The notes under the pieces were generated by a model that searched no databases, was not told where the DNA came from, and worked only from the letters and a program-made list of their open reading frames with translations. Below are positions 4,336 through 54,285 of a DNA stretch of 64,000 nt, piece by piece; within the stretch, counting starts at the first letter, position 1, and each line of letters begins with the position of its first letter. Source of the stretch: Rhodobacter capsulatus (lineage in GTDB: Bacteria > Pseudomonadota > Alphaproteobacteria > Rhodobacterales > Rhodobacteraceae); assembly GCF_003254295.1 (NCBI RefSeq), contig NZ_QKZO01000002.1, forward strand, positions 328,820 through 392,819. The letters are read 5' to 3'. The position numbers and the translations under genes were made by a program.

Positions 4336-4476
4336 CGGGGGCTCTGCCCCCGTCCGCAAGCGGCGCCCCCGGGATATTTGCGCCAAGGTGAAATCCAATC
4401 CGTTCCCTTTCACCTTGGTCCAAATATCCCGGGGGTGAATTCGGCGCAGCCGAAGAGGGGGCAGCGCCCCCTTTTT
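4336..4476. repeat. Interspersed palindromic element, copy 1 (long form) with terminator
   Basis: Three stacked inverted repeats. First, CGGGGGC-tct-GCCCCCG at 4336-4352. Second, a large palindrome whose left arm (4365-4393, GCCCCCGGGATATTTG then CGCCAAGGTGAAA) matches its right arm (4408-4435, TTTCACCTTGG then CAAATATCCCGGGGG). Third, GGGGGC-agc-GCCCCC at 4457-4471 followed by TTTTT. The last unit is a good intrinsic terminator for the M20 gene. The same arms recur at six other places in the window. Confidence 0.85.
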
Positions 4477-4519
4477 CCTGACACAACCGTGATCGCGGCT
4501 TCGGCCTGCCGCGACTGCC

Positions 4520-4548
4520 TTGCCATTGCGGGGGGCCGCGGCTAGGGT
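4520..4548 (+). promoter_or_regulatory. Probable sigma-70-type promoter of yajC-secDF
   Basis: TTGCCA (4520-4525) and TAGGGT (4543-4548) are 17 bases apart, with the start of transcription expected about 45 bases before the yajC ATG. The -10 box is weak. Confidence 0.45.
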
Positions 4549-4601
4549 GCGCGCCGAAAACCGGGGCATCGCCCCCACGGCCCTAACGAAAGGACCATGC
4601 C

Positions 4602-4937
4602 ATGTTCGTCTCTCCCGCCTATGCCCAGGATGCCTCTGCCGCCGCTGGTGGCCTGGCCGCCTTCGGCCAATTCGTGCCGCTGATCCTGATCTTCGTGATC
4701 ATGTATTTCCTGCTGATCCGCCCGCAGCAAAAGAAAGCCAAGGAGCACAAGGCGATGGTCGACGCGCTGCGGCGTGGCGACATGGTGCTGACCCAGGCCG
4801 GCATCATCGGCAAGATCGTGCATCTGCGCGAAGATGGCGAGGTCGAGATCGAGATCGCCAAGGACATGAAGGTGCGGATGATCCGCAGCGCCGTCGTGCA
4901 GGTTCTGTCGAAGACTGAACCGGCCGCCAATACCTGA
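4602..4937 (+). CDS. yajC: Preprotein translocase accessory subunit YajC
   Basis: Small single-pass inner membrane protein that joins SecD and SecF in the holotranslocon. The 111 residues include one membrane helix (FVPLILIFVIMYFLLIRPQQ, about residues 27-46) followed by the family signature RPQQKKAKEHKAMVDALRRGD and a beta domain with GIIGKIV. The ATG has a ribosome binding site (GAAAGGACC) eight bases upstream. secD follows after 22 bases, the standard gene order. Confidence 0.95.
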   Translation: MFVSPAYAQDASAAAGGLAAFGQFVPLILIFVIMYFLLIRPQQKKAKEHKAMVDALRRGDMVLTQAGIIGKIVHLREDGEVEIEIAKDMKVRMIRSAVVQVLSKTEPAANT

Positions 4938-4959
4938 CCTGATCCGGGGCCGCGCCGCC

Positions 4960-6624
4960 ATGCTGCAGATTTCGCTTTGGAAGCGTCTAGTCATTCTGGG
5001 TCTGTGCCTTGCGGCATTGATCACGGCGGCGCCCAACATGTTCTATGCCCGGGTCGAGGGGCATAACGACGCCGTTTCCGCCTTCGAGAAGACCGGGGCG
5101 ATGACCGAGACCCAGGTGGCCGCCAAGGCCGCCTGGCCCGATTGGGCGCCCTCGGCGCTGGTCAATCTGGGGCTCGATCTGCGCGGCGGCGCGCATCTTC
5201 TGGCCGAGGTGCATCTGGGCGAGGTCCACAAGGCCCGGATGGATGCGCTTTGGCCCGAGGCGCGCAAGGTTCTGGCGGCCGAACGCGCCACCATCGGCGC
5301 GATTCGGCGCGTGCCCTCGCCCGAGGGGGAATTGCGCATCCAGATCGGCGAGCGCGCGCAGATCGCCCGCGCCGTCGAAGCCGCCCGGACGCTGGCGAGC
5401 CCGGTGGTCAGCCTGACCGGGGTCGGCCAGTCCGACTACGAGGTGACGGCCGAGGGCGACACCGTCGTCTTCCGGCTCTCGGAGGCGGAACAGAAAGCCA
5501 CCGATGACCGCACCATGCAGCAATCGCTGGAAATCGTGCGTCGCCGCGTCGATGCCGCGGGCACGCGCGAACCGACGATCATGCGCGAAGGCACCGACCG
5601 CATCCTGATCGAAGTGCCCGGCATCGGCTCGGCGCAGGAGCTGAAGGATCTGATCGGCACCACCGCCAAGCTGACCTTCCATCCGGTGCTCGGCACCACC
5701 TCGAATCCGAATGCGCCGGTCGCCTCGGGCAATGAACTTCTGCCCGATGCCGAACGGCAGGGGCTTTATCACCTGCTGGACGAAGTTCCGGTGGTGACGG
5801 GTGACGATCTGACCGATGCGCGCCCGACCACCGACGACAACGGCGCCCCGGCGGTGTCGTTCCGCTTCAATGTCAGCGGCGCGCGCGCCTTTGGCGATTA
5901 CACCGCCAGCCATATCGGCGAGCCCTTCGCCATCGTTCTGGACGGCAAGGTGATTTCGGCGCCGACGATCCAGGCGCATATCGCGGGCGGATCGGGGATC
6001 ATCACCGGCCGCTTCAGCATCGAGGAGGCGACCGATCTGGCGCTGCTTCTGCGCGCCGGTGCGCTGCCTGCAGGCATGACCTTCCTTGAGGAACGCACGA
6101 TCGGGCCGGAGCTGGGCGCCGACAGCGTCAAGGCGGGGATGGTCGCCTCGCTCATCGGTTTTGCCGCGGTCGTGGTCTACATGATCGCCTCCTACGGGCT
6201 TTTCGGCTTCTTTTCCTCGGTGGCGCTGTTCATCAACATCGCCTTCATCTTCGCCGTGATGGGCGCGATCGGCGGCACGATGACCCTTCCCGGGATCGCC
6301 GGGATCGTGCTGACCATCGGCACCTCGGTCGATGCCAACGTGCTGATCTACGAACGCATGCGCGAGGAAATCCGCGCTGGCAAATCCCCCGTGCGGGCGA
6401 TCGAGCTGGGCTTTGACAAGGCGATGTCGGCGATCATCGATGCGAACGTGACCTCGTTCCTGTCCTCGGCGATCCTGTTCGTGCTGGGGGCCGGGCCGGT
6501 GCGCGGTTTTGCCGTCACCACGATGATCGGCATCGCCGCCTCGATCTTCACCGCGATCTGGGTGGTCCGGCTGATGATCGTCATCTGGTACGGCTGGCGT
6601 CGTCCCAAGACCATCGTCATCTGA
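4960..6624 (+). CDS. secD: Protein translocase subunit SecD
   Basis: Inner membrane RND-type subunit that uses the proton-motive force to help pull proteins through SecYEG. One N-terminal membrane helix (about residues 8-26) is followed by a periplasmic region with the P1 motif LGLDLRGGAHLLAEV and the head domain. Five helices follow in the C-terminal part, with GIVLTIGTSVDANVLIYERM as the conserved D-A-N-V segment in helix 4. The length of 554 residues is typical of alphaproteobacterial SecD. It lies 13 bases before secF, in one operon with yajC. Confidence 0.96.
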   Translation: MLQISLWKRLVILGLCLAALITAAPNMFYARVEGHNDAVSAFEKTGAMTETQVAAKAAWPDWAPSALVNLGLDLRGGAHLLAEVHLGEVHKARMDALWPEARKVLAAERATIGAIRRVPSPEGELRIQIGERAQIARAVEAARTLASPVVSLTGVGQSDYEVTAEGDTVVFRLSEAEQKATDDRTMQQSLEIVRRRVDAAGTREPTIMREGTDRILIEVPGIGSAQELKDLIGTTAKLTFHPVLGTTSNPNAPVASGNELLPDAERQGLYHLLDEVPVVTGDDLTDARPTTDDNGAPAVSFRFNVSGARAFGDYTASHIGEPFAIVLDGKVISAPTIQAHIAGGSGIITGRFSIEEATDLALLLRAGALPAGMTFLEERTIGPELGADSVKAGMVASLIGFAAVVVYMIASYGLFGFFSSVALFINIAFIFAVMGAIGGTMTLPGIAGIVLTIGTSVDANVLIYERMREEIRAGKSPVRAIELGFDKAMSAIIDANVTSFLSSAILFVLGAGPVRGFAVTTMIGIAASIFTAIWVVRLMIVIWYGWRRPKTIVI

Positions 6625-6637
6625 GGAGGAACCATCC

Positions 6638-7639
6638 ATGGCTTTCCGTCTGAAACTGGTTCCCGAAAAGACCAACTTCGACTTTTTCCGCTGGCAATGG
6701 GCGACGTTCGGCGCGGCCGTGGTGCTGATGATCGCCTCGGTGATCCTGCCGCTGGTGATCGGGCTGAACTTCGGCATCGATTTCAAGGGCGGCACGACGA
6801 TCCGCACCGAATCCACGACGGCGGTCGATGTCGGCGTCTATCGCGCCGCGCTGGAGCCGCTGGATCTGGGCGACGTGATCATCTCCGAGGTGCGCGATCC
6901 GAGCTTTCGCGCCGATCAGCATGTGGCGATGATCCGCATCCAGATGCAGGGCGATGGCCAGGGCGCCGAGGGGCAGGGCGCGCAGGGCCAGGAGCTGGTG
7001 AACAAGGTCGAGACCGCGCTGACCTCGGTCGATCCGGCGCTGCAGATCACCTCGTTTGAATCCGTCGGCCCCAAGGTTTCGGGCGAGCTGGTCTGGACCG
7101 CGGTTTGGTCGCTTTTGGCGGCGACCGTGGTGATCATGTTCTACATCTGGGTCCGGTTCGAATGGCAATTCGCGCTCGGCGCCGTGGTGGCGCTGGTGCA
7201 TGACGTGCTGCTGACGGTCGGGCTTTTCGCCGTGCTGCAGCTGAAGTTCGACCTGACCACGGTGGCGGCGCTGTTGACGATCACCGGCTATTCGATCAAC
7301 GACACCGTCGTCGTCTTTGACCGGCTGCGCGAAAACCTGATCAAATACAAGACGATGCCGCTGCGCGATGTGATGAACCTTTCGGTCAACGAGACGCTCT
7401 CGCGCACCGTGATGACCGGCATGACGACGCTTCTGGCGCTGGTGCCGATGCTGATCTGGGGCGGCGACGTGATCCGCGGCTTCGTCTTCGCCATGGTCTG
7501 GGGGGTGTTCACCGGCACCTATTCCTCGGTCTATGTGGCGAAGAACATCGTGCTGTTCATCGGGCTCGACCGCAACAAGGAGAAGAAGGACCCCTCGGAC
7601 AAGTTCTTTTCCGGAGGGGCGCAAGATGCAAAGCCGTGA
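6638..7639 (+). CDS. secF: Protein translocase subunit SecF
   Basis: Partner of SecD with six membrane helices. Visible landmarks are LNFGIDFKGGTTIRTE in the periplasmic loop, ESVGPKVSGEL before helix 2, and TGYSINDTVVVFDRLRENL, the family motif in helix 4. The length of 333 residues is usual. AGGAGG sits 8 bases upstream of the ATG. The last 14 bases overlap the next small gene, so translation is likely coupled. Confidence 0.96.
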   Translation: MAFRLKLVPEKTNFDFFRWQWATFGAAVVLMIASVILPLVIGLNFGIDFKGGTTIRTESTTAVDVGVYRAALEPLDLGDVIISEVRDPSFRADQHVAMIRIQMQGDGQGAEGQGAQGQELVNKVETALTSVDPALQITSFESVGPKVSGELVWTAVWSLLAATVVIMFYIWVRFEWQFALGAVVALVHDVLLTVGLFAVLQLKFDLTTVAALLTITGYSINDTVVVFDRLRENLIKYKTMPLRDVMNLSVNETLSRTVMTGMTTLLALVPMLIWGGDVIRGFVFAMVWGVFTGTYSSVYVAKNIVLFIGLDRNKEKKDPSDKFFSGGAQDAKP

Positions 7640-8000
7640 GGCGGGCTTCGGAGCGGCGCTGCCGATCGACGGCTACGGGCCGGGGTTCTTCCGCATCGCC
7701 GGGGCGGTGCACCCGGGCGGCCTTCTGATCCGCGCCGAGGCGGCGTCAGCCTGGACCGGCTTCGACGATCTTGCGGCGCTGCGCGCGCTGGCCGGGCAGG
7801 TTGATCTGCTGCTGTGCGGGATGGGTGCAGATATTGCGCATCTTCCCAAAGGCTTGCAGGTAGAACTTGAAGCGCTTGGACTGCTGGCCGAGCCGATGTC
7901 CACCCCCGCCGCCGCGCGCCACTACAATGTGCTTCTCTCCGAGGGCCGCCGCGTCGGCGCGGCCCTTTTGCCGATGCCGGGCGCGGTGCCGACGGCATGA
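7626..8000 (+). CDS. Mth938-like domain protein (ORF124 upstream of helA)
   Basis: A 124-residue cytoplasmic protein of the Mth938/DUF498 fold. The core [20 protein letters not shown] and the segment [20 protein letters not shown] fit the family (GxG...P); the latter is followed by a region ending [18 protein letters not shown], where T-x-x-A-x-x-x-Y/F-N-x-L-x-x-E-G-R-x-V is the strongest signature. The biochemical role is unknown; a human homologue (NDUFAF3) helps complex I assembly. The gene overlaps secF by 14 bases and ccmA by 4, which ties it to both modules. In R. capsulatus an ORF124 was described directly before helA, and the length matches exactly. Confidence 0.85.
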
Positions 8001-8641
8001 CGCTGCTCACCGTCGAAAATCTCACCGTCAGCCGCGGCGGCCTTGCCGTGCTGGAAGGGGTGAGTTTTTCGCTTGCTTCGGGCCATGCGCTGGTGCTGCG
8101 CGGCCCGAACGGGATCGGCAAGACGACGCTTCTGCGCACTTTGGCCGGGCTGCAACCGCCCTTGGCCGGGCGGGTGTCGATGCCGCCCGAGGGCATTGCC
8201 TATGCCGCCCATGCCGACGGGCTGAAGGCCACGCTTTCGGTGTGCGAAAACCTGCAGTTCTGGGCGGCGATCCATGCCACCGACGGGGTGGAGACGGCGC
8301 TGGCGCGGATGAACCTGCGGGCGCTGGAACACCGCGCCGCCGCAAGCCTCTCGGCCGGGCAGAAGCGCCGACTGGGGCTGGCGCGGCTTCTGGTCACCGG
8401 GCGTCCGGTCTGGGTGCTTGACGAACCGACGGTCTCGCTCGATGCCGCCTCGGTCGCGCTTTTTGCCGAAGCGGTGCGGGCGCATCTCGCCGAAGGTGGC
8501 GCGGCGCTGATGGCGACGCATATCGATCTGGGTCTGACCGAGGCCGCAATGCTGGATCTGGCGCCGTTCAAGGCCCGCCCGCCCGAGGCGGGCGGCCATC
8601 GCGGCGCCTTCGATCACGATTTTGACGGAGCCTTCCTGTGA
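7997..8641 (+). CDS. ccmA: Cytochrome c biogenesis ABC transporter ATPase CcmA (HelA)
   Basis: ATPase subunit that powers release of haem-loaded CcmE from the CcmC-CcmE complex. [18 protein letters not shown] is the Walker A segment near residues 34-51, [15 protein letters not shown] the ABC signature, and [12 protein letters not shown] the Walker B with the D-loop. The length of 214 residues is normal. The start overlaps the stop of ORF124 (ATGA). It corresponds to helA in R. capsulatus. An interspersed palindrome lies between this gene and ccmB. Confidence 0.95.
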
Positions 8642-8666
8642 GCCGCGGCGCCCGGATCCTGCCGCA

Positions 8667-8727
8667 AAAGGGCGTATTTGTGCCAAGAAGAAACCGCATG
8701 GCTTTTTCTTGGTCCAAATACGCGCTT
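8667..8727. repeat. Interspersed palindromic element, copy 2 (short form), between ccmA and ccmB
   Basis: The left arm (8667-8693) reads AAAGGGCGTATTTG then TGCCAAGAAGAAA. The right arm (8702-8727) reads CTTTTTCTTGG then CAAATACGCGCTT. It lacks the outer GGGGGC-GCCCCC hairpins of the long form. It fills most of the 118-base gap between two genes that are otherwise in one operon. Confidence 0.8.
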
Positions 8728-8759
8728 GCCGACATCGGCCGCGGGCGGAGGGCCTTGCC

Positions 8760-9416
8760 ATGAGGGCGCTATTGTCGCGTGACTTGCGCTTGGCGATCCG
8801 CGCCGGGGGCGGCTTCGGGCTCGGGCTGGCGTTTTTCCTGATCGTGGTGACGCTGGTGCCTTTCGGCGTCGGTCCGCAGGGAGAGGTTCTTGCCCGGATC
8901 GCCAGCGGCATTCTGTGGCTGGGGGCGCTGCTGGCCTGTCTTCTGTCGCTTGACCGGATCTTCGCGCTCGATTTCGAGGATGGCTCGCTTGATCTTCTGG
9001 CCACCGCGCCGATCCCGATGGAGGCGGTGGTGACGATCAAGGCGCTGGCGCATTGGATCACCACCGGGCTGCCGCTGGTTCTGGCGGCGCCGCTCTTTGC
9101 GGTCTTGCTGCATCTTCCCGCGCCCGCTTATCTCTGGCTCGAGATCTCGCTGCTTCTGGGCACGCCGGCGCTCTCGGTGCTGGGCACCTTTGGCGCTGCG
9201 CTGACGGTGGGGCTGAAGCGGGGCGGCCTGCTTTTGTCGCTGCTGGTGCTGCCACTTTACGTGCCGACGCTGATCTTTGGCGCCGAGCTGGTGCGGCGCG
9301 GCGCCGAGGGTCTGGCGACGCAGGTGCCGCTGGCGATGCTGGCGGGGATCACCGCCGCCACCGTGGCTTTGGTGCCCTTTGCCTCGGCGGCGGCGATCCG
9401 GGTCAATTTGCGGTGA
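8760..9416 (+). CDS. ccmB: Haem exporter protein CcmB (HelB)
   Basis: Membrane subunit of the CcmAB transporter, 218 residues with six predicted helices. GFGLGLAFFLIVVTLVPFGVG is helix 1 of the family, and the stretch LERIFA-like SLDRIFALDFEDGSLDLLAT is the conserved loop after helix 2, matching the E. coli CcmB pattern. ATG 8760 was chosen because homology begins with MRALLSRDLRLAIR and GGAGG lies 8 bases upstream; the open frame further upstream runs through the palindromic element. ccmC follows after 83 bases. Confidence 0.93.
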   Translation: MRALLSRDLRLAIRAGGGFGLGLAFFLIVVTLVPFGVGPQGEVLARIASGILWLGALLACLLSLDRIFALDFEDGSLDLLATAPIPMEAVVTIKALAHWITTGLPLVLAAPLFAVLLHLPAPAYLWLEISLLLGTPALSVLGTFGAALTVGLKRGGLLLSLLVLPLYVPTLIFGAELVRRGAEGLATQVPLAMLAGITAATVALVPFASAAAIRVNLR

Positions 9417-9499
9417 GACCTGTTCCAGCTTGATGCGAGTCAATTCGCGCCGTGGCAAAGCGTGACATGTCCGACGGGACGCGAGAGGGAGGAGAGCCG

Positions 9500-10228
9500 A
9501 TGTCGATCTGGGAATATGCAAACCCGGTCAAGTTCATGCAGACTTCGGGCCGGCTTCTGCCCTGGGTCGTGGGCGCCACCGTTCTGACGCTGGTGCCCGG
9601 GCTGGTCTGGGGGTTCTTCTTCACCCCGGTCGCGGCCGAGTTCGGCGCGACGGTGAAGGTGATCTATGTCCATGTTCCGGCGGCGACATTTGCCATCAAC
9701 ATCTGGGTGATGATGCTGGTCGCCTCGCTGATCTGGCTGATCCGGCGTCACCATGTTTCGGCACTGGCCGCAAGGGCGGCGGCGCCGATCGGCATGGTGA
9801 TGACGCTGATCGCGCTGGTCACCGGCGCGCTTTGGGGGCAGCCGATGTGGGGGACCTGGTGGGAATGGGACCCGCGGCTGACCTCCTTCCTGATCCTGTT
9901 CCTGTTCTACCTGGGCTACATGGCGCTGTGGGAAGCGATCGACACCCCCGACACGGCCGCCGATCTGACCGGCGTTCTGTGTCTGGTCGGCTCGGTCTTC
10001 GCGGTGCTGTCGCGCTATGCGGCGATCTTCTGGAACCAGGGGCTGCACCAGGGCGCGACGCTCAGCCTCGACAAGGAAGAGCATATCGCGGATGTTTATT
10101 GGCAGCCCCTGGTGCTTTCTATCGTCGGGTTCGGGTTTCTGTTCGTGACGCTGCTGCTGTTGCGCACCCGCACCGAGATTCGCGCCCGCCGTATCAAGGC
10201 ATTGGAGCAGAGGGAGCGCATGGCATGA
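9500..10228 (+). CDS. ccmC: Haem-handling protein CcmC (HelC)
   Basis: Inner membrane protein that attaches haem to CcmE. It has six membrane helices and the WWD motif (WGTWWEWDPRLTSFLILFLF, near residues 117-136) that binds haem at the periplasmic face, with flanking histidines that supply ligands (YVHVPAA and RYAAIFWNQGLHQG). The length of 242 residues is typical. Homology begins at MSIWEYANPVKF, and GGGAGGAGAG lies just upstream. The stop overlaps the ccmD start in ATGA. Confidence 0.95.
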   Translation: MSIWEYANPVKFMQTSGRLLPWVVGATVLTLVPGLVWGFFFTPVAAEFGATVKVIYVHVPAATFAINIWVMMLVASLIWLIRRHHVSALAARAAAPIGMVMTLIALVTGALWGQPMWGTWWEWDPRLTSFLILFLFYLGYMALWEAIDTPDTAADLTGVLCLVGSVFAVLSRYAAIFWNQGLHQGATLSLDKEEHIADVYWQPLVLSIVGFGFLFVTLLLLRTRTEIRARRIKALEQRERMA

Positions 10229-10383
10229 TGCCCGAGTTCGGAAAATACGCGGTCACGATCCTTGCCTCCTGGGGGGTGACGCTGGTGCTGTTGGCGGGGC
10301 TGATCGCGGCCACGCTGATCCGCGGCGCGCGGGTGAAACGGGCGCTGAAGGCGCAGGAAGAACGGATGAAGAACGATGGCTAA
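10225..10383 (+). CDS. ccmD: Haem exporter protein CcmD (ORF52/HelD)
   Basis: A 52-residue protein with one membrane helix (VTILASWGVTLVLLAGLIAA) followed by a basic tail (RGARVKRALKAQEERM), the CcmD pattern. CcmD stabilises the CcmC-CcmE interaction and is needed for release of holo-CcmE. It overlaps ccmC by 4 bases and ccmG by 8. The length equals the ORF52 described between helC and helX in R. capsulatus. Confidence 0.9.
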   Translation: MMPEFGKYAVTILASWGVTLVLLAGLIAATLIRGARVKRALKAQEERMKNDG

Positions 10384-10906
10384 GCCCTTGATGTTTCTTC
10401 CGCTGTTGGTGATGGCGGGCTTTGTTGGCGCGGGCTTCTTGGCGATGCAGCAAAATGACCCGAATGCCATGCCGACCGCGCTTGCCGGCAAGGAGGCGCC
10501 CGCGGTCCGGCTTGAACCGCTGGGCGCGGAGGTGCCCTTCACCGATGCCGATCTGCGCGATGGCAAGATCAAGCTGGTGAACTTCTGGGCCTCCTGGTGC
10601 GCGCCCTGTCGGGTCGAGCATCCGAATCTGATCGCGCTGAAACAGGACGGGTTCGAGATTATGGGTGTGAACTGGAAGGATACGCCCGACAAGGCGCAGG
10701 GGTTCCTGGCCGAGATGGGCAGCCCTTACACCAGGCTTGGCGCCGATCCCGGCAACAGGATGGGGCTCGACTGGGGCGTGGCCGGGGTTCCGGAAACCTT
10801 TGTGGTCGATGGCGCGGGACGTATCCTGACCCGCATCGCCGGGCCACTGACCGAGGATGTGATCACACGCAAGATCTATCCGCTTCTGGCGGGCCCGGCG
10901 GAATGA
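10376..10906 (+). CDS. ccmG: Thiol:disulfide interchange protein CcmG (HelX/DsbE)
   Basis: Periplasmic, membrane-anchored thioredoxin-like protein that keeps apocytochrome c haem-binding cysteines reduced. An uncleaved signal anchor covers residues 4-23. The redox motif WASWCAPCRVEHPN places the active cysteines at 75 and 78, and GVAGVPETFVVDGAGRI holds the cis-proline and the CcmG-type GVxGxPETF signature. The length of 176 residues is normal. It is the last gene of the ccm cluster here; ccmE, ccmF and ccmH are not in the window. It converges on hpt with 32 bases between the stops. Confidence 0.95.
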   Translation: MAKPLMFLPLLVMAGFVGAGFLAMQQNDPNAMPTALAGKEAPAVRLEPLGAEVPFTDADLRDGKIKLVNFWASWCAPCRVEHPNLIALKQDGFEIMGVNWKDTPDKAQGFLAEMGSPYTRLGADPGNRMGLDWGVAGVPETFVVDGAGRILTRIAGPLTEDVITRKIYPLLAGPAE

Positions 10907-10938
10907 GGGTCTGGGCCCGGATCCTGTCCGGGCTGTGA

Positions 10939-11487
10939 TCACTTCTGCGGATCGGTGAAACGGACCGTGCCGATGAAGGGCAGGTTGCGGTGGTTTTGCG
11001 CATAGTCGAGCCCGTAGCCGACAACGAATTCGTCGGGGATTTCGAAGCCGGTCCAGCGCGCCTTCACATCGACCTCGCGGCGCGACGGCTTGTCGAGCAT
11101 GGCGCAGCATTCGATCCGCCGTGGCGCACGGGCGCGCAGCATTTCCATCACTTTCGAAATCGTATGCCCGGTGTCGACGATATCTTCCACGACCAGCACG
11201 TCACGCCCGCCAATTGTGCCGCGCAAGTCCTTGAGAACGCGCACTTCCCGCGTGGAAGTTGTTTCGTTCCCATAGCTTGAGGCTTCGAGGAAATCGACCT
11301 CGCAGGGCACGCCGATCTCGCGGATCAGATCGGCGATGAAGACGAAGGAGCCGCGCAACAGCCCCACCACCACCAGCCGGTCGGTGTCCCTGAAGGCCTC
11401 GGTGATTTCGGCGCCAAGCGCCTCGACCCGGGCCGCGATGGCTTTGGCCGAGATCATCTGGTCGATTACGTAACCGTCTTGCGACAT
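10939..11487 (-). CDS. hpt: Hypoxanthine phosphoribosyltransferase
   Basis: Purine salvage enzyme that makes IMP (or GMP) from hypoxanthine (or guanine) and [24 protein letters not shown] is the PRPP-binding motif, near residues 97-116. [19 protein letters not shown] is the pyrophosphate loop, and [20 protein letters not shown] is the base-binding region. The protein has 182 residues, normal for bacterial HPRT. ATG 11487 was chosen because AGGAGG lies 3-8 bases upstream; the frame stays open for longer but without homology. It is divergent from the COQ10-like gene. Confidence 0.94.
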
Positions 11488-24640: not shown

Positions 24641-24700
24641 AAAGGGCGTATTTAAGCCAAGAAAAGCGGATGTCTTTTTCTTGGTGCAAATACGCCCTTT
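24641..24700. repeat. Interspersed palindromic element, copy 3 (short form)
   Basis: The left arm AAAGGGCGTATTTAAGCC plus AAGAAAAG (24641-24666) pairs with the right arm CTTTTTCTTGGTGC plus AAATACGCCCTTT (24673-24700). It is closely similar to copy 2 and also lacks the outer GGGGGC hairpins. It fills the gap between convergent hflX and the acylase gene and may act as a terminator for both. Confidence 0.8.
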
Positions 24701-28173: not shown

Positions 28174-28288
28174 GGGGGCGCTGCCCCCGGCTTCGCCCCC
28201 AAGGATATTTGCACCAAGGTGAAAGGCACAACGGGTTTCCCTTCATCTTGCCGCAAATACCTCGGGGGTGCGGGGGCAGCGCCCCCGC
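28174..28288. repeat. Interspersed palindromic element, copy 4 (long form)
   Basis: GGGGGC-gct-GCCCCC (28174-28188), then a palindrome with left arm GCCCCCAAGGATATTTG and CACCAAGGTGAAA (28195-28224) and right arm TTTCCCTTCATCTTGCCG with CAAATACCTCGGGGG (28236-28267). GCGGGGGC-agc-GCCCCCGC (28270-28288) closes it. It lies between the dehydrogenase gene and convergent ssb. Confidence 0.85.
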
Positions 28289-42518: not shown

Positions 42519-42553
42519 GGGATTTCGCCTCGGGGCAAGCCCGAGGCGACCCG

Positions 42554-42676
42554 CCGGGGGCTCCGCCCCCGGACCCCCGAGGTATTTGAGGCAAGATGAA
42601 AGGACCGCGGCAGCGCGGAAGAAGGCCCTGCCTTTCCTTGGCAAAATACGCCGGGGGTGCGGGGGCGGAGCCCCCG
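42554..42676. repeat. Interspersed palindromic element, copy 5 (long form)
   Basis: CCGGGGGC...GCCCCCGG (42554-42572) opens it. The left arm ACCCCCGAGGTATTTGAG with GCAAGATGAAA (42573-42601) and the right arm CCTTTCCTTGGC with AAAATACGCCGGGGG (42631-42657) form the core, and GCGGGGGCGGAGCCCCC (42659-42675) closes it. It lies between two converging genes. The centre (42602-42630) is unrelated to the other copies. Confidence 0.85.
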
Positions 42677-42706
42677 TGAGTCGCCGCGCGCGCGGCGAAA
42701 CCGGTT

Positions 42707-45346: not shown

Positions 45347-45441
45347 CGGGGGCGCTGCCCCCGCACCCCCGAGGTATTTCAGGCAAGTTGAACGGCAAGC
45401 GAAGAAAATGACATTCCTTGTGCCGAAAATATCCCCGCCGG
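45347..45441. repeat. Interspersed palindromic element, copy 6 (long form, degenerate)
   Basis: GGGGGC-gct-GCCCCC (45348-45362) and the left arm ACCCCCGAGGTATTTCAG with GCAAGTTGAA (45365-45392) are well kept. The right arm CATTCCTTGTGCCG with AAAATATCCCCGCCGG (45412-45441) has drifted, and the closing hairpin is missing. It lies upstream of both the PfkB-kinase gene (divergent) and the rpsB promoter. Confidence 0.75.
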
Positions 45442-47405: not shown

Positions 47406-47463
47406 GTTGCGGCGTTGACGCGGTTCTTTGGGCGTTGACGTGACGGCAGGAGATGCATTTTTC

Positions 47464-47607
47464 ATGCATGAAATTGAAACGGCCCAGACGGGTGACTATA
47501 AACCCGCTGGGCCGTACCGGAAAACCGGGTGGGATCTCGTCGGATCAATCTTCGACTGCTTCCCCGTTCTTGGCCGAAGCCACCACTCACGGAACACGTG
47601 TATCTAA
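47464..47607 (+). CDS. Possible small protein of 47 residues (uncertain)
   Basis: An open frame from ATG 47464 to TAA 47605-47607. It begins MHEIETAQTGDYKPAGPYRK and continues TGWDLVGSIFDCFPVLGRSH, rich in aromatic residues. AGGAG lies 11 bases upstream. Arguments against: about 64 percent of third codon positions are G or C, lower than I would expect of neighbouring genes; a strong hairpin (GGCCCAG 47481-47487 with CTGGGCC 47507-47513) lies inside it; and I recognise no family. The hairpin could instead end transcripts of the LuxR gene on the other strand. The rest of the 47355-47686 interval shows a terminator and nothing else. Confidence 0.3.
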   Translation: MHEIETAQTGDYKPAGPYRKTGWDLVGSIFDCFPVLGRSHHSRNTCI

Positions 47608-47686
47608 GGCATTTCTATGGATTCGGAGTAGTCAGGTATTCCTTACCATGCCAGAATGTCGCAGTCTTTTGGATGGCTCGCCCGGG

Positions 47687-48439
47687 CTAGGGGGCGGAGG
47701 TGATGAAAAGCTGTTTCTGCATCGAGGCCTTGAGCAGGGCCTGCGCGGTGGTCTCGACCTCGAGGGCCTCGCGGGCAAGGCGCAGATGTTTCTCGACCGT
47801 GGCCGTGGTCAGGCCGAGGATTTGCGCGATATCGGCCGAGGTCTTGCCGTCGCCGACCCATTCCAGCACCTCGCGCTGACGCGCGGTCAGCGGCCGACGC
47901 GTGGTCGAAAAGGGCAGGGCGCTGATTTTCAGATGCATGATCGAATTCAGCACCCGCAGGTCGCGGCCATGTTCGTCCCAGATCGCATCGACATCGGCCT
48001 GTGTCAGGCCGGGCTGCGCGCAGAGGCCGATCGCCCCTTTGGCGCGGGCGGATGTGTCGGGAAAGCCGATCGAATAGCCCGCCAGCACCTGAAAGCGGCG
48101 GTTCAGTTCGATCACCTTGCGCTCGCCCTCGGTCAGCTCGCCCGCCGCCATCCGTTCGGCGACCATGCGCCACGAACAGGCCCCCACCGAGTCGATGGCC
48201 CATTTCACCATCGGCGCTTCCGAGAAGAGACCGGCGCCCAGAAAGGAATTCAGATAGGCCGGATCGTGGTTGGACAGGATCAGCGTGTCGTCGAGAGAGC
48301 CAAGGTTCTGCGTCGCGCTGAAACGGGTGAACCCGTAGATCAGACGATCAAAGCCGAACTTCGCCATCTGCGCACAATGCATGCTCCAGATGGTCGCGAT
48401 GTCATCGGCGACCAGGAGTTTTTCAAGATGATCGAGCAT
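47687..48439 (-). CDS. LuxR-type transcriptional regulator (solo)
   Basis: A 250-residue regulator. The N-terminal autoinducer-binding-type domain (about 10-165) is followed by the DNA-binding domain LTARQREVLEWVGDGKTSAD with IAQILGLTTATVEKHLRLA. Key pocket residues of acyl-homoserine-lactone receptors are altered: the stretch SNHDPAYLNSFLGAGLFSEA with PMVKWA lacks the usual Trp/Tyr pair and the ligand-binding Asp. No luxI gene is near. Met 48439 was chosen since MLDHLEKLLVADDIATIWSM resembles family starts; the frame is open to 48541. Inverted repeats lie in the upstream region. R. capsulatus is known to have GtaR/GtaI; this need not be GtaR. Confidence 0.85.
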   Translation of the reverse strand: MLDHLEKLLVADDIATIWSMHCAQMAKFGFDRLIYGFTRFSATQNLGSLDDTLILSNHDPAYLNSFLGAGLFSEAPMVKWAIDSVGACSWRMVAERMAAGELTEGERKVIELNRRFQVLAGYSIGFPDTSARAKGAIGLCAQPGLTQADVDAIWDEHGRDLRVLNSIMHLKISALPFSTTRRPLTARQREVLEWVGDGKTSADIAQILGLTTATVEKHLRLAREALEVETTAQALLKASMQKQLFITSAP

Positions 48440-48458
48440 TGCGCGCGTCTCACACCTC

Positions 48459-48579
48459 GCAAGCTTGCACAGATCACGGTTTTGCCATGCGTCGACCCTT
48501 CGGCGCAAGTCCGTTCCGCCCCGCAGCGCGTGGCATGTCACAAGGTCGCAGATCGCACCATCTTCGGGTGATCTGTGCG
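48459..48579. promoter_or_regulatory. Inverted repeats upstream of the LuxR-type gene
   Basis: GCAAGCTTGC (48459-48468) is a perfect palindrome 20 bases before the LuxR start. TGCACAGATCAC (48466-48477) and its near-perfect inverse GTGATCTGTGCG (48568-48579) lie about 100 bases apart. A third partial match, CGCAGATCGC, is at about 48547. These may be operator sites for autoregulation or for another factor. Confidence 0.4.
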
Positions 48580-48615
48580 ATTCTGCTTTTTTACCAAGTG
48601 TTTAAGTTTAGATCT

Positions 48616-49056
48616 TCACACAATGACGCCGCTGCTGTCGGCGGCTTTGGCGCGCAGCATCGGCACAAGGGCAGAGAGATCATAGCCCGCATTTTGGGCA
48701 GTCTGCACAATCTCCTCGAGCGGCCGCTGTCCGGCCTGGCTCAGGGCCCACAGATGCGAGGATCGCGTCCCGGACCGGCACCAGGCCAGAACCGGCGCGT
48801 CGGCCGCGGCAAGGGCCGCCTCGAAACCGGCGATCAGATCGGGGGTCAGTTCGCCCGGATAATAGGGCAGATGCACATAGGACAGCCCGGCGGCGGCGGC
48901 GGCGGCCTGCAGCGCGGCATTGAGACCGGATTCGACCTCTTCATCCGGGCGATTGTTGATCAGCGTGCGAAAGCCGAGGCGGGCGGCCTCGGCGATATCG
49001 TCAAGGGCGATCTGCGGCGCCACGGCGAAATCGGGCGTCAGGGTACGCAGGTCCAT
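48616..49056 (-). CDS. TIGR01244-type sulfurtransferase/phosphatase-like protein
   Basis: A 146-residue protein of the DUF442/Blh N-domain group with a dual-specificity-phosphatase-like fold. FAVAPQIALDDIAEAARLGF and RTLINNRPDEE start the family pattern, and VLAWCRSGTRSSHLWAL carries the C-x5-R loop. Relatives fused to a beta-lactamase-like domain act in sulfide handling and biofilm control. ATG 49056 has GGAGGA upstream. It lies 60 bases downstream of cbbY on the same strand, so it may be at the end of the cbb transcript. Confidence 0.8.
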   Translation of the reverse strand: MDLRTLTPDFAVAPQIALDDIAEAARLGFRTLINNRPDEEVESGLNAALQAAAAAAGLSYVHLPYYPGELTPDLIAGFEAALAAADAPVLAWCRSGTRSSHLWALSQAGQRPLEEIVQTAQNAGYDLSALVPMLRAKAADSSGVIV

Positions 49057-49116
49057 GTCTTCCTCCGGCAAGTTCCGCGGCCACTCTGGACCGCGCGGCC
49101 GGCAGGTGCAAGGGGC

Positions 49117-49800
49117 TCAGGGCAGCTCCGGGATCGCTTGGGTCGCGGCGGCGCTCAGATCGGGGATCCGCCAATCCGCGGCGGAAAAGTCATCCCCGCG
49201 GGTGTATTCCGAGGGCGTCAGGACGACCCGAAGCCCGGCGGCCCTGGCCGAGGCAAGACCGGCGCGGCTGTCTTCAAAGGCCAGGCAGGCCGCAGGCGGC
49301 AGGCCAAGCCCCTGCAATGCCCGCAGATAGACATCCGGGGCGGGTTTCTTTTGCGCCACCTCGTCCCCGGCGGCAATCACCTCGAAAATGTCCCCGGCAG
49401 GCTTGCTGAAAGTGGCGGCGATCAGCGCATCCACATTGGCCCGCGTGGTGGTGGTGGCAATGGCGAGGCGAAGTCCCGAGGCTTTCGCCCGGTCGATCAG
49501 CTCCGCGACGCCCGGCAGCAAGCCGACCTGCCCCGAAGCGATGATCTCGACATAGCGTTGCGTCTTGGCTTTGTGCAGATCGGCGATCTTGGCGTCCGAA
49601 GGCCCGGAACCCAGATTTTCGCGGTGTTTCGCCATCCGCTCCTTGCCGCCGGTGGTGCGCAGAAGCGTCCGATAATCTTCCTTCGACCAGTACCAGTCGA
49701 GCCCCTGCGCCGCGAAAGTCTCGTTGAAGGCTTGCCGATGGACTTCCTCGGTTTCCGCCAAAGTGCCGTCGACATCGAAAATCAGCGCCTTCAGCTCCAT
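49117..49800 (-). CDS. cbbY: HAD-family phosphatase CbbY
   Basis: A 227-residue haloacid-dehalogenase-type hydrolase. LIFDVDGTLAETEEVHRQAF holds the nucleophile Asp, IATTTTRANVDALI the motif 2 Thr, and KKPAPDVYLRALQGLGL plus CLAFEDSRAGLASARAAGLR motifs 3 and 4. CbbY of Rhodobacter dephosphorylates xylulose-1,5-bisphosphate, a misfire product and inhibitor of RubisCO. The start overlaps the cbbZ end by ten bases; ATG 49806 is an alternative. Confidence 0.93.
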   Translation of the reverse strand: MELKALIFDVDGTLAETEEVHRQAFNETFAAQGLDWYWSKEDYRTLLRTTGGKERMAKHRENLGSGPSDAKIADLHKAKTQRYVEIIASGQVGLLPGVAELIDRAKASGLRLAIATTTTRANVDALIAATFSKPAGDIFEVIAAGDEVAQKKPAPDVYLRALQGLGLPPAACLAFEDSRAGLASARAAGLRVVLTPSEYTRGDDFSAADWRIPDLSAAATQAIPELP

Positions 49801-50450
49801 GTCCATCCCTCAACGATGCCCGGCAGGGCGCTGAAATCGTGAAACTTTGCGGCGTGGGGCAGCGCGTCGAGCGGGGTCTTGCGATAGCCCTCGGTATAGA
49901 TCACGAAGGGCAGTCCCGCGTTTTGCGCCGTCTGTGCGTCGATCTCGCTGTCGCCGATGTAAAGCGCGTGTGGGCGGCGCAACACTCTGCGCGCCTCGTT
50001 CACCATCTCGGGGTTCGGCTTGCGGGTGGGCAGGCTGTCGCCGCCGATGACAAGCTGGAAATAATCCGTCAGACCGACATGGGCGATTGCGGCAAGAGCG
50101 GGCTTGTAGGGCTTGTTGGTGGTGATCGCCATCGGGCAGCCCATCTCCCGCAGACGCTGCAAGGCCGTGATCACACCCGGGTAAAGCGTGTTGCCCTCGA
50201 CATCGGTCTCATAGCGGCTCACCAGATCGGCATAGATCGCGTCGAAAAGCGGCCCTTCCGGGTCTTCGCCCGCGGTGGTCAGCAGGCACCGCACCAGATG
50301 AGGGGCGCCTTGCCCAACGAAGCTGCGGATCTGATCAAGGCCGAGGGGCGCGTAGCCGCGTGCCCTCAGCACATCGTTCGAGACCTTGTGGATGGCGGGC
50401 GCCGAATCGATCAGCGTGCCATCGAGATCGAAAATCAGCGCTGGCGCCAT
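49791..50450 (-). CDS. cbbZ: Phosphoglycolate phosphatase CbbZ (Gph)
   Basis: Removes phosphate from 2-phosphoglycolate formed by RubisCO oxygenation. ALIFDLDGTLIDSAPAIHKV holds the HAD nucleophile; the cap domain follows, then MAITTNKPYKPALAAI, TRKPNPEMVNEARRVL and ALYIGDSEIDAQTAQNAGLP. The length from ATG 50450 is 219 residues. That ATG overlaps the stop of the preceding thioredoxin-fold gene (TGATG), which supports the choice over ATG 50462. Confidence 0.95.
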   Translation of the reverse strand: MAPALIFDLDGTLIDSAPAIHKVSNDVLRARGYAPLGLDQIRSFVGQGAPHLVRCLLTTAGEDPEGPLFDAIYADLVSRYETDVEGNTLYPGVITALQRLREMGCPMAITTNKPYKPALAAIAHVGLTDYFQLVIGGDSLPTRKPNPEMVNEARRVLRRPHALYIGDSEIDAQTAQNAGLPFVIYTEGYRKTPLDALPHAAKFHDFSALPGIVEGWTWS

Positions 50451-51001
50451 CACTCTTTCCATTTGATCGAACAGCCCATCGAGGCGATCTGGTCCCGCGG
50501 TCCCTGACCCGTTTCGGCCACGCTCAGCATCGCCTCGTAAAGCTCGCGGCGCGCATCGGCCGGACCCGGGGTGCGGCCCGACGCGTCAAGACGGCCGCGA
50601 TACTGCAGTTGACATTCGGCGTTGAACCCGAAGAAATCCGGCGTGCAGATCGCGTCGTAAGCCTTTGCCACCGCTTGCGTTTCGTCAAAAAGATAGGGGA
50701 AACGGAAGCCCCGTTCCGCCGCCAGACGCGCCATGTTTGCCGGGCTGTCCTCGGGATAGCTTGCGACATCGTTCGACGAAATCGCCGCCACGCCGATGCC
50801 CAGATCCATCAGCGCCTCGGCATCGCGTTGCAGCCGGTCGAGGATCGCCTGAACATAGGGGCAATGGTTGCAGATGAACATGATCAGCAGGCCTTTCGGC
50901 CCGCGGATGTCGTCGAGGCTCCAGAACCTGCCCGAGGTGTCGGGCAGGCGGAAATCCGGGGCTTTCCAGCCGAAGTCGCAGACCGGAGGGGATACGGCCA
51001 T
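50450..51001 (-). CDS. Thioredoxin-fold (AhpC/TSA-like) protein in the cbb operon
   Basis: A 183-residue thioredoxin-family protein. APDFRLPDTSGRFWSLDDIR is the peroxiredoxin-like start. The active loop is LLIMFICNHCPYVQAILDRL with a single Cys-x-x-x-x-Y (NHCPYV) instead of CxxC. VAAISSNDVASYPEDSPANM and CTPDFFGFNAECQLQYRGRL follow; the T-P-D-F/x-F-x-F-N block is characteristic of this group. The partner and reaction are unknown. It lies 8 bases after cbbE and overlaps cbbZ, so it is made with the Calvin cycle enzymes and may have a redox role there. Confidence 0.85.
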   Translation of the reverse strand: MAVSPPVCDFGWKAPDFRLPDTSGRFWSLDDIRGPKGLLIMFICNHCPYVQAILDRLQRDAEALMDLGIGVAAISSNDVASYPEDSPANMARLAAERGFRFPYLFDETQAVAKAYDAICTPDFFGFNAECQLQYRGRLDASGRTPGPADARRELYEAMLSVAETGQGPRDQIASMGCSIKWKE

Positions 51002-51009
51002 CGCGAACC

Positions 51010-51696
51010 TCAGAGGGCGGCTTGCGCCGCGGCGCGGATCGCGGCGATGTTCTTGCCATAGACCTCGGGGGTGGACACCGAGCCGCCCTTGAAGACGCCC
51101 GAACCGGCCACGAAGACATCGGCGCCCGCTGCCGCCATCAAGGGCGCGGTGACCGGGTCCATGCCGCCGTCGATCTCGATATGCACCGGACGGTCGCCGA
51201 TCATCGCGCGCAGCTTGCGCACCTTGGCCGTCATGTCGATATATTTCTGCCCGCCAAAGCCGGGGTTCACCGTCATCACGCAGACAACATCCGCAATATC
51301 AAGCACATGCTCGATCGCTTCGGCCGGTGTGCCGGGGTTGATCGCCACGCCCGACTTCATCCCGGCGGCGCGGATCGCCTGCAGCGTGCGGTGGATATGC
51401 GGCCCGGCCTCGACATGGGCGGTCAGCACATCGGCGCCCGCCTGCGCATAAGCGTCGATATAGGCATCGACCGGCGAGATCATCAGATGCACGTCCATCA
51501 CGGTTTTCACATGCTTGCGGAAGGCCGCGACGGCGGGCGGACCAAAGGTGAGGTTCGGCACGAAATGCCCATCCATCACGTCGACATGCACCCAATCGGC
51601 GCCCTGCGCCTCGATGGCCTGGATTTCACGGCCGAAGTCGGCGAAGTCGGCAGAAAGGATCGAGGGGGCGATCTTGATGGAACGGTCGAAGGTCAT
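51010..51696 (-). CDS. rpe: Ribulose-phosphate 3-epimerase (CbbE)
   Basis: Interconverts xylulose 5-phosphate and ribulose 5-phosphate. The TIM barrel shows KIAPSILSADFADFGREIQA, WVHVDVMDGHFVPNLTFGPP with catalytic Asp and metal His, MTVNPGFGGQKYID and IEIDGGMDPVTA. The protein has 228 residues. ATG 51696 has TCAGGAGACC upstream. A GC-rich hairpin separates it from cbbM. Confidence 0.96.
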   Translation of the reverse strand: MTFDRSIKIAPSILSADFADFGREIQAIEAQGADWVHVDVMDGHFVPNLTFGPPAVAAFRKHVKTVMDVHLMISPVDAYIDAYAQAGADVLTAHVEAGPHIHRTLQAIRAAGMKSGVAINPGTPAEAIEHVLDIADVVCVMTVNPGFGGQKYIDMTAKVRKLRAMIGDRPVHIEIDGGMDPVTAPLMAAAGADVFVAGSGVFKGGSVSTPEVYGKNIAAIRAAAQAAL

Positions 51697-51716
51697 GTCG
51701 GTCTCCTGAGGGGTTG

Positions 51717-51738
51717 GGGCGGGGGTGTCCCCCCGCCC
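51717..51738 (-). promoter_or_regulatory. GC-rich hairpin between cbbM and cbbE
   Basis: GGGCGGGGG (51717-51725) pairs fully with CCCCCGCCC (51730-51738) around a four-base loop. There is no T-run on the minus strand (CCAACCCC follows), so it is unlikely to be an efficient terminator. It could protect the 3' end of a processed cbbM mRNA or lower expression of the genes behind. Confidence 0.55.
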
Positions 51739-51752
51739 GACTATCACGGCGT

Positions 51753-53129
51753 TCAGTTCACGCCCAGAGCAACGCGCCAGCCCGGATAGAGCTTGTCGGC
51801 ATCGTTCGGGAAGCTCTCGAACGCCCGGGCAAGTTCGCGATGCGATTTCGCATAGGTCACCAGATCCACGCCCGCCTTCCAGGCATCGCAGGATTGCCGC
51901 AGCGATTTCGCCCCGGCGGTGCCGCCGTCAAGGTGGCCAAAGGCGCCGCCGCCCGAGGTCTGGATCACGTTCGAATGGCCAAGGTTGTCGAAGAAGCCCG
52001 GCAGACGCAGCGCGTTCATGCCGCCCGAGATGATCGGCGTCGTGGCTTTCATGCCGAGCCAGTCCTGATGGTAGAACGGGCCCTGCGCCGCCTCGTCGGT
52101 CAGCATGTAGGCCATGATCTTGTCGGAAGCATCGCCTTCCATCTTGCCATAGCCCATCGTGCCGGTGTGGATTCCGCTAGCCCCTTGCAGACGCGACATC
52201 TTGGACAGAACGAAGGCGGTGTAGCCGCGCATCGACTGCGGCGAGGTCACGGCGCCATGGCCCGCGCGGTGGTAGTGCAGGAACTGCCGCGGGAAGGAGC
52301 GCCGCGCGGTGGTGATCGCCGCCGGGCCGGTGACGTAGCCATCCACGAGGAAGGCGACGTGATCGGCATTTTCGCCAAAGGTTTCAAGGATGTATTCGCC
52401 ACGGGCGACCATTTCGTAATGATCGTCGGCGGTGATGTTGGCCGAGAAGAGCTTGGCTTCGCCGGTTTCGTCCTGCGCCCGTTTCATCGCATCCGCCACC
52501 AGACGGATGGTCTCCTTCAGCGGCGCGAAGGTCTGGTTGCCCTGCGGCTCGTCATTCTTGATGAAATCGCCACCCAGCCAGAATTCATAGCAGGCGTCCG
52601 CAAAGGGCTTCGGACGCAGACCCAGCTTCGGCTTGATGATCGTGCCGACGACCATGCCGCCATCGACCACCGGACGGCCCAGAACCCGCCACATGTCGGC
52701 GATGTTCATCGAGGGGCCGTCGAACAGGCGCAGATAGCAGGGCGGCACGTAGAAATCGTGCATCTTGGCGTATTCGACGTCGCCCATGCCCTGGTTGTTG
52801 CCGATCGTCAGCGTCAGGAACGAGCACAGCATCGCCCGGCCGTCGATGATGTTGCGGTCAAAGAGCTCGACCGGATAGGCGATCTTCATGATCTCTTTTT
52901 CCGGGTCGATCTCATAGACCAGCGCATCGACGCCGCGGGTGAAATCGTCGGTGGTGGACACTTCGACGTTGGTCCCGGTCGAGCTTTCGGCGGCGAAATG
53001 GGCGGCGGTTTCCAGATAGCCGTAGCCCGCCTTGGGCTTCATGATATAGGCGCAGAGCACATGGCGCCCGCCGGCGATGAGATCGGCTTCCTTGAGGTCA
53101 AGCCGGGCGTAACGGTTAGACTGATCCAT
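51753..53129 (-). CDS. cbbM: Form II ribulose-bisphosphate carboxylase CbbM
   Basis: Carboxylates ribulose 1,5-bisphosphate. As a form II enzyme it needs no small subunit. Active-site residues match the R. rubrum enzyme in number: K166 in [15 protein letters not shown], and carbamylated K191 with D193 and E194 in [16 protein letters not shown]. Loop 6 appears as [11 protein letters not shown], which contains catalytic Lys. The length is 458 residues, as in R. capsulatus. It lies 18 bases after the aldolase gene. Form II enzymes have low CO2/O2 specificity and serve under anaerobic, CO2-rich growth and redox balancing. Confidence 0.98.
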
Positions 53130-53147
53130 GATGAGGGGTCCTTTCGA

Positions 53148-54212
53148 TCAGTTGGTTTTCGGCGCAAGCGAGCCGCTGGCATAGCGTTTCGCCATGTCAT
53201 CCATCGGGATGACCTTGATTTTCGAAGCATGGCCCGCGGTGCCGAAGGCTTCAAGACGCGCCTTGCACAGATCGCGCATCGCATCCATCGCGGGTTTGAG
53301 GAATTTGCGCGGATCGAATTCGGCCTTGTTCTGCTCGGCGATGCGGCGGAACTGCCCGGTCATCGCCATGCGGCAGTCGGTGTCGATATTGACCTTGCGC
53401 ACGCCCATCTTGATGCCGCGCACGATTTCCTCGACCGGCACGCCGAAGGTTTGCGGCATCGCCCCGCCGAATTCGTTGATGATGTCCTGCAGATCCTGCG
53501 GCACCGACGACGAGCCGTGCATCACCAGGTGGGTGTTCGGCAGTTTCTTGTGGATCGCCTCGATCACCGACATCGCCAGGATCTCGCCATCGGGCTTGCG
53601 CGAAAATTTGTAGGCGCCATGCGAGGTACCGCAGGCGATGGCCAGCGCGTCCACTTGCGTTTTCTTGACGAAATCGACGGCCTGATCGGGGTCGGTCAGC
53701 AGCATCGAATGATCGAGCTTGCCCACCGCGCCATGGCCATCCTCGGCCTCGCCCTCGCCGGTTTCCAGCGAACCGAGAACGCCCAGTTCGCCCTCGACCG
53801 AGGCGCCGACCCAATGCGCCATCCGCGCAACGCGTTCCGAGATTTCGACGTTATATTCGTAGCTTGCGGGCGTCTTTGCATCCCCTTCCAGCGAGCCGTC
53901 CATCATCACCGAGGTGAAGCCGTGACGGATCGCGGTCATGCAGGTGGCCTCGTTGTTGCCGTGGTCCTGATGCATGCAAAGCGGAATGTCCGGATAGATC
54001 GCGGCCAAGGCTTCGATCATCTTCGCCAGCATGATGTCATTGGCATAGCTGCGCGCGCCGCGCGAGGCCTGGATGATGACCGGCGCATCGACGGCCTTGG
54101 CGGCCTCCATGATGGCGAGGCCCTGTTCCATGTTGTTGATGTTGAAGGCGGGCACGCCATAGGAATATTCTGCGGCGTGGTCCAGCAGTTGCCGAAGGGT
54201 GATCAGTGCCAT
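53148..54212 (-). CDS. cbbA: Class II fructose/sedoheptulose-bisphosphate aldolase (CbbA)
   Basis: Zinc aldolase that joins dihydroxyacetone phosphate with glyceraldehyde 3-phosphate or erythrose 4-phosphate. [20 protein letters not shown] holds the zinc-binding His and active-site Asp-His, and [20 protein letters not shown] follows. [20 protein letters not shown] and [20 protein letters not shown] are the class IIB blocks. The length is 354 residues. A half copy of the interspersed palindrome lies between its start and the gap gene. Confidence 0.97.
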
Positions 54213-54236
54213 TTTGGTTTCCTCAACTCGCGGAGC

Positions 54237-54285
54237 TTTTCATCTTGCTCCAAATACCTCGGGGGTCCGGGGGCAGAGCCCCCGG
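54237..54285. repeat. Interspersed palindromic element, copy 7 (half copy), within the cbb operon
   Basis: Only the right arm, TTTTCATCTTGCTC with CAAATACCTCGGGGG (54237-54265), and its flanking hairpin CCGGGGGC-aga-GCCCCCGG (54267-54285) are present. The left arm is missing. It lies between the gap and aldolase genes, in the only long gap (79 bases) of the cbbG-cbbA-cbbM part of the operon. Confidence 0.8.

Follow-up and report, generated by a model that had tools for sequence, protein, structure and literature searches.

The 64,000-nucleotide stretch of Rhodobacter capsulatus DNA examined here (the window; contig NZ_QKZO01000002.1, positions 328,820 to 392,819) carries members of a palindromic repeat family between its genes. 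A preliminary description of the window had listed seven interspersed copies, and arms of the element are indeed found at all seven sites: facing pairs lie at 4.37, 8.67, 24.65, 28.20 and 42.58 kb, a good arm faces a decayed one at 45.37 kb, and a single arm lies at 54.24 kb. The repeat unit consists of two facing arms of ~20 nt, each of the form p1p2p3-TATTT-NNN-S-CAAG-q0q1q2-AA, and many arm pairs are flanked on the outside by G-run/C-run hairpins that we call heads. The arms sort into about five subtypes, designated A (AGG-TATTT-NNN-G-CAAG-ATGAA), B (GGA..C..GTGAA), Bh (GGA..G..ATGAA), C (GCG..C..AAAAA or GCG..C..AAGAA) and D (GCG, a 2-nt spacer and GAAAA).

Site 1 is a full element of type B/B, in which head, arm, 14-nt loop, arm and head follow each other at 4337..4472, with the left arm at 4366..4393 (+) and the right arm at 4408..4435 (-). 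Roughly this span was found again in relatives at about 72-86% identity, and the 151-nt site has a predicted fold of -95.9 kcal/mol as RNA (z -8.2 versus shuffles) and of -54.2 as DNA (z -8.4). Site 2, at the junction of genes that we take to be ccmA and ccmB, has two type C arms at 8672..8693 (+) and 8702..8723 (-), and the type C arms of site 3, located 3' of an hflX-like gene, are at 24646..24667 (+) and 24674..24695 (-). Site 4 combines a type B left arm beside the end of an ssb-like gene (28203..28224, +) with a type A right arm (28241..28262, -) that is followed by a head hairpin extending to about 28287. Site 5 comprises a head hairpin and type A left arm at 42555..42601 (+) and a type D right arm, with its 2-nt spacer, plus head hairpin at 42631..42676 (-). 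At site 6, a head and type A arm (45347..45393, +) face the decayed partner arm (45413..45437, -). Site 7 is a single head and type A arm at 54238..54286 (-) between two same-strand genes, presumably cbbG and cbbA, and the gene cluster at 53148-60271, which we take to be a cbb (carbon fixation) cluster, has a single arm between two of its genes that is of another subtype in relatives.

The arm pattern CCYSRRGRTATTTN{2,5}CAAG matches the 3.67-Mb genome 160 times (78 on the plus strand and 82 on the minus strand), and its reversed control gave no match; arm copy number in this genome is far above chance. For closer study we used a 770-kb sample comprising the window and 40 further stretches, some of which were picked for holding matches, such that densities in the sample are not genome-wide estimates. 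Among 138 matches to the core TATTT-N-CAAG in this sample, 132 are intergenic and six fall within genes predicted by our own codon-usage caller; the flanking letters are missing from those six, which appear to be chance occurrences. Removal of two overlap duplicates left 130 intergenic arms, of which 126 are flanked by genes on both sides and enter the context count. The triplet ahead of TATTT in these 130 arms is AGG (49), GGA (51), GCG (28) or AGA (2), and the invariance of TATTT and CAAG is due in part to search patterns that demand them.

These arms comprise 47 pairs that face each other and 36 singles, where one pair split across two stretches (C1:39965 and C1:40014) is counted as two of the singles. 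Arm order within an intergenic region is '+-' in 46 cases and back-to-back ('-+') in one, and 17-29 nt separate the CAAG ends in 37 of the 47 pairs. Single arms, a few of which show a decayed partner, may be remnants, and their orientation in gaps between tandem genes is without bias (13 versus 10).

We consider the heads part of the element: of 100 head hairpins located between genes, 89 are no more than 70 nt away from an arm, and a decayed arm adjoins some of the other 11. A head was recognised at 82 of the 130 arms; all three G/C runs are of equal length in 61 of these, and 64 have a first G-run as long as the last C-run, compared with 32 in shuffles. The head G-run, its own C-run and the next C-run are mostly 5/5/5 or 6/6/6, and three times 4/4/4, as illustrated at window positions 42555-42579. 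Founder copies or alternative pairing could be the cause of these equal lengths. Type D arms often have long loops and outer hairpins such as TTTCGCCTCGGG...CCCGAGGCGAAA (window 42519-42706; L050 18689-18950; L132 11556-11969), an arrangement that appears to be a larger relative of the element with a nested structure.

The paired changes between arms that the preliminary description had reported for some copies prove to be general: both arms belong to the same subtype in 36 of the 47 pairs, compared with 11.6 ± 2.8 in shuffles. By position, the arms agree at p1 in 40 pairs (25.3 in shuffles), p2 in 42 (30.5), p3 in 40 (23.6), S in 40 (23.2), q0 in 41 (24.2), q1 in 42 (29.7) and q2 in 40 (30.5). 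The NNN letters show no covariation, agreeing in 20, 11 and 14 of 40 pairs versus 18.8, 11.7 and 15.5 in shuffles. The same division is evident among palindromes from 30 other genera (one from each), which were fetched by a pattern that fixes TATTT, CAAG and GAA in both arms and leaves p, NNN, S and q0q1 free. Agreement there reaches 30/30 at S (14.0 in shuffles), 30/30 at q1 (10.8), 29/30 at p1 (19.2), 29/30 at p2 (14.1) and 30/30 at p3 (16.7), and is 7, 9 and 12 of 30 at NNN (10.2, 8.8 and 11.2). In this set, q0 is near-invariant (28/30 versus 28.0), and the five letters farther out exhibit no clear difference from shuffles.

A MAFFT alignment restricted to 54 short-loop palindromes (36 from this genome and 18 from other genera) has 95.4% paired stem cells versus 86.1% when shuffled, and 109 cells changed on both sides versus 39, a value reached in 0 of 500 shuffles. 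The two outermost pairs are weak (33/54 and 37/54), and the counts of pairs and of pair types with changes are no higher than in shuffles. The NNN columns, serving as a control, are paired in 50.6% of cells versus 50.0%. Thus, it is the stem that is conserved, with NNN acting like a 3x3 internal loop of free sequence. Neither outcome that the preliminary description had set against its own proposal, namely copies at chance level or arms lacking covariation, was observed; stem covariation is present both in this genome and across the 30 genera.

Matched arms need not imply a folded strand. Instead, a DNA-binding protein acting as a dimer might use each arm as a half-site, or the arms might be the inverted repeats of a miniature inverted-repeat transposable element (MITE) that an ordinary DD(E/D) transposase cuts; strand folding would be irrelevant in either case. 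One protein binding both arms would produce matching, and a spacer that it does not contact would vary freely, like NNN. However, a single duplex-binding protein is disfavoured because several matched subtypes coexist in one genome, which would demand several specificities. The CAAG ends are also close together, and the heads lie outside many arms, unlike a transposon that ends at its inverted repeats. As for the target-site duplication of a classical MITE, the 8.7-kb site shows a single candidate repeat of 3 bp. We regard this explanation as distinctly unlikely.

Comparisons with close relatives reveal turnover of the element. Over the region of the presumed cbb cluster, identity to the present genome (G000) is 95% for G014, 94% for G010, 91% for G009, 87% for G005, 86% for G002 and 85% for G017. 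The 8.7-kb element is present in G000, G010 and G014, and a bare overlapping gene junction takes its place in G009, G005 and G002, the same three genomes from which the 28.2-kb element is missing. The 24.65- and 42.6-kb sites are empty in G005 and G002, and only the right half of the latter element is missing in G010 and G009. At 4.4 kb, G009 has no palindrome, and a deletion seems to have removed it from G010. Other sites differ in subtype. Site 6 carries type Bh with a different head in G014, G010, G009 and G005 and nothing in G002; the 54.25-kb arm is type A in G000, Bh-like in G014, G005 and G002, and type C in G010 and G009, with no arm at this position in G017 and G008. Across 158 orthologous gaps of G000 and G010, arms occur in both genomes in 19, in G000 only in 4, in G010 only in 1 and in neither in 134, using a strict pattern by which the mutated 8.7-kb copy of G010 was scored absent.

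The same comparisons bear on whether the arms agree simply by templated copying from one to the other, through quasi-palindrome correction or gene conversion, without selection. Both arms do sometimes change together while a similar loop is retained, as at C2 148.6 kb, which is B/B in G000 and Bh/Bh in G010. Fifteen ortholog comparisons, which overlap in part, cover 105 stem positions; of the changes there, 9 affected both arms with the pair kept, and 6 were one-sided (5 breaking a pair and 1 mending it). The eight sites compared between G000 and G010, a small sample, showed 6 double changes at 3 sites and 5 one-sided changes at 3 sites. Arm-to-arm copying is nonetheless disfavoured because it should also match NNN, which lies between the copied segments and agrees no more often than by chance, and we judge such copying very improbable. 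The preliminary description had read the paired changes as selection or gene conversion on structure; compensatory change in the stem is supported, and copying between arms is not.

The location of the element relative to genes is strongly skewed. Among gaps of at least 60 bp, 27 of the 65 convergent ones contain it (13.3 predicted from net gap length), as do 41 of the 214 tandem ones (39.7 predicted) and 6 of the 91 divergent ones (21.0 predicted), a distribution with p 4e-6. In tandem gaps the core begins a median of 42.5 nt past the stop codon and 89.5 nt ahead of the next start, and 34 of 46 cores are closer to the stop. Likewise, the 30 palindromes from other genera comprise 13 in tandem gaps, 13 in convergent gaps and 4 without assigned context, with none in divergent gaps or within genes. 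This 3' placement may reflect function or tolerance.

A function there would be that of an mRNA 3'-end hairpin for processing, stabilisation, protein binding or possibly termination, selected as an RNA stem and spread only by ordinary duplication or conversion. The enrichment in convergent gaps, the proximity to stop codons, the very stable RNA fold predicted for site 1 and the retention of 19 of 24 element sites in the closest relative compared are all consistent with this explanation. Other observations speak against it. Intrinsic termination was rejected as a general function, as no T-run follows the 82 recognised heads (T fractions of 0.50, 0.30 and 0.21 at positions 1-3), and none of the seven window copies is included in our lists of terminator-like sequences; site 1 ends by eye in TTTTT yet is likewise unlisted. 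Some copies are located within apparent operons, for example between genes that, judging from their protein starts, we take to be cbbG/cbbA, ruvA/ruvB and ilv genes. Copies are also gained or lost between close species. Among the stem cells that are mismatched in tandem gaps, G-U (2) does not clearly outnumber A-C (1), with three others, although so few cells cannot decide the matter. No Rfam family identity could be assigned: the window has no match above a gathering score, and all 16 matches of site 1 up to E 1 score below these thresholds and are mostly microRNA hairpins. On balance, we consider a purely RNA-level element unlikely, if still the most serious of the alternatives.

The preliminary description had also raised the possibility of an associated REP-associated tyrosine transposase (RAYT), REP denoting repetitive extragenic palindromic sequences. 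This expectation was not borne out: Y1_Tnp (PF01797) is found in none of the 18 genomes of the genus, and 5 of 14 control genomes were positive. In the family, Y1_Tnp occurs in 30 of 295 genomes, comprising 3 of the 38 with at least 10 arms and 27 of the other 257 (counted by eye, and assuming that both scans drew the same 295 genomes). A RAYT link was therefore rejected, with Y1_Tnp absent from the genus and not associated with arms in the family, and the element does not look RAYT-driven. The search for an autonomous version covered the genes near some single arms and one element cluster; judged by their protein starts, with no family search made of them, these appear to be housekeeping genes.

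With these observations in mind, the reading we prefer, giving it about even chances, is that the repeats make up a large family of interspersed elements, non-autonomous and able to form hairpins, that resemble REPINs (REP doublets forming hairpins) without REP sequence or REP transposase, that are moved by a putative non-Y1 factor and that reside mostly 3' of genes. In single-stranded DNA or in RNA, facing arms would pair as two helices, an outer and an inner one, with a symmetric 3x3 internal loop (NNN/NNN) between them. A trans-acting factor outside the Y1 (RAYT/IS200) family might then recognise the folded hairpin and copy it to new intergenic sites, and changes in this factor could drive each genome's own dialect of arm sequences. 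After landing, copies would persist chiefly just past stop codons and between converging genes, where a hairpin is presumably tolerated and may serve as an mRNA 3'-end hairpin. Movement is supported by presence/absence differences between close species and by the patchy range.

Several points weigh against this reading. No movement has been observed and no mobilising gene identified, and binding of a dimeric protein to the inverted repeats as duplex DNA would produce matched arms as well. Only at the 8.7-kb site is there a fairly clean empty junction, with a possible 3-bp TGA repeat, and several other presence/absence differences resemble deletion or decay. Nineteen of 24 element-bearing regions are common to a 94%-identical relative, and therefore movement must be slow. 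At shared sites, subtype and heads have been exchanged in place, which one-time insertion does not predict. The proximity to stop codons (median 42.5 nt, 34/46 nearer the stop) also fits a plain 3'-end function. Finally, cells changed on both sides number 25 versus 16.8 over the three NNN columns of the alignment, a value reached by 12 of 500 shuffles and with the excess in the first N column, which is a weak hint against complete freedom of NNN.

A covariance model was built and relatives were scanned with it, as the preliminary description had envisaged, and at E up to 0.01 matches were found in 18 of 18 genus genomes, ranging from 4 (G017) to at least 150 when counted per strand. Among these are G001, G003 and G015, where the strict pattern gave none. 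As read from the best model matches (with G006 and G007 left out, and using a model that itself rewards paired arms), the inner arms vary between genomes and are mostly matched within a pair. The G001 dialect is T-CAGG-TTGAA, with some C-CAAG-AAAAA; G-AAAG prevails in most G003 copies and C-AAAG-TCGAA in G017. Several arm pairs of G015 and G003 are imperfect.

A more ambitious form of the preferred reading would extend it to the whole family: a Rhodobacteraceae factor that recognises stems of one set geometry (a TATTT helix, a 3x3 loop of free sequence and a dialect helix), spreads them intergenically and co-evolves with them into species-specific matched dialects, all without RAYT. We advance this only tentatively, considering it more apt to fail than to hold. 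The differing dialects make a search for the factor directly doable by asking which gene tracks the dialect, and the covarying stem, set against a freely varying internal loop, offers a natural experiment on the features by which a factor recognises a hairpin. The findings add a large palindromic repeat family to a well-studied photosynthetic lineage, and they advise caution before a short hairpin just past a Rhodobacter gene is taken for a dedicated regulator, as it may be a repeat.

Beyond the genus, the arm pattern occurs in 95 of 295 family genomes, 38 of them with at least 10 matches (counted by eye); its reversed control gave one match each in seven genomes, such that one or two matches in a genome may have arisen by chance. 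The strict palindrome is present in 39 of the 295 including the present genome (38 of 294 others), with no match for its reversed control. In G279 and G261, the loops are also alike by eye between several copies, as if whole units had recently been copied. Across a class sample of 240 genomes, searched with the covariance model under stricter filters and with 23 candidates scored per genome, the present genome is the sole match, and two family members are unmatched too. The arm pattern occurs in 3 of 24 other-family genomes with 1-3 matches each, none confirmed by the model in the class search.

At hflX loci of other genera, a palindrome lies 3' of hflX in 3 of 80, namely in Thioclava marina (L052), in a metagenome-assembled genome labelled Sphingomonadales (L051) and in Pseudotabrizicola (L058; E 0.24, below significance), and a de novo palindrome search in these 80 loci yielded few elements. 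The L051 contig encodes an HflX 81% identical to that of the window and carries the element; it is probably from a mislabelled Rhodobacter relative. Five partial plasmid matches, covering 34-35% of the query at 85-88%, were found in Salipiger, Tritonibacter and Marinibacterium. A phage origin was rejected after no match was found in our phage collection.

The preliminary description had likened the repeats in function to REPs and bacterial interspersed mosaic elements (BIMEs) while noting a different sequence. Our results support a REP/BIME-like family of interspersed palindromes that differs from REP in sequence; a likeness in function is possible. GTAG/CTAC occurs within 12 nt of none of the 83 units, and CGTC/GACG within 12 nt of 10, which gives no consistent CGTC tag. 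Enterobacterial BIMEs are mosaics of inverted palindromic intergenic units that are rare between divergent promoters; the Rhodobacter element differs in its arms, heads and internal loop, by description only.

As described in PMC3116915, REPINs share with the element a facing doublet as the proposed unit, hairpin formation, extragenic location, high copy number, common compensatory changes, singlets read as remnants and a variable spacer. In contrast, the Rhodobacter element has neither a GTAG tag nor a Y1 gene in the 18 genus genomes, its conserved arms border the loop, many copies have outer G-run/C-run heads, and its 3x3 internal loop is free in sequence. The CGTC-tagged REPs and untagged palindromic repeats of PMC3733652 are similarly palindromic and high-copy; CGTC-tagged REPs also apparently lack a dedicated transposase, untagged families are left by the authors for future study, and Rhodobacter, Roseobacter and Paracoccus do not occur in the main text. 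The HRC-8-4 motif of Rhodobacterales, as described in PMC8632094, is an intergenic hairpin motif of the same order and is likened here by description only. We found no description of the repeat in the open-licence literature searched, which does not establish its absence in print. Lastly, Tabrizicola sp. SY72 has inverted GTAG/CTAC doublets at its hflX 3' site and 4 kb farther on (L060 11236-11294 and 15244-15312), and from their letters these look like genuine GTAG REPs.

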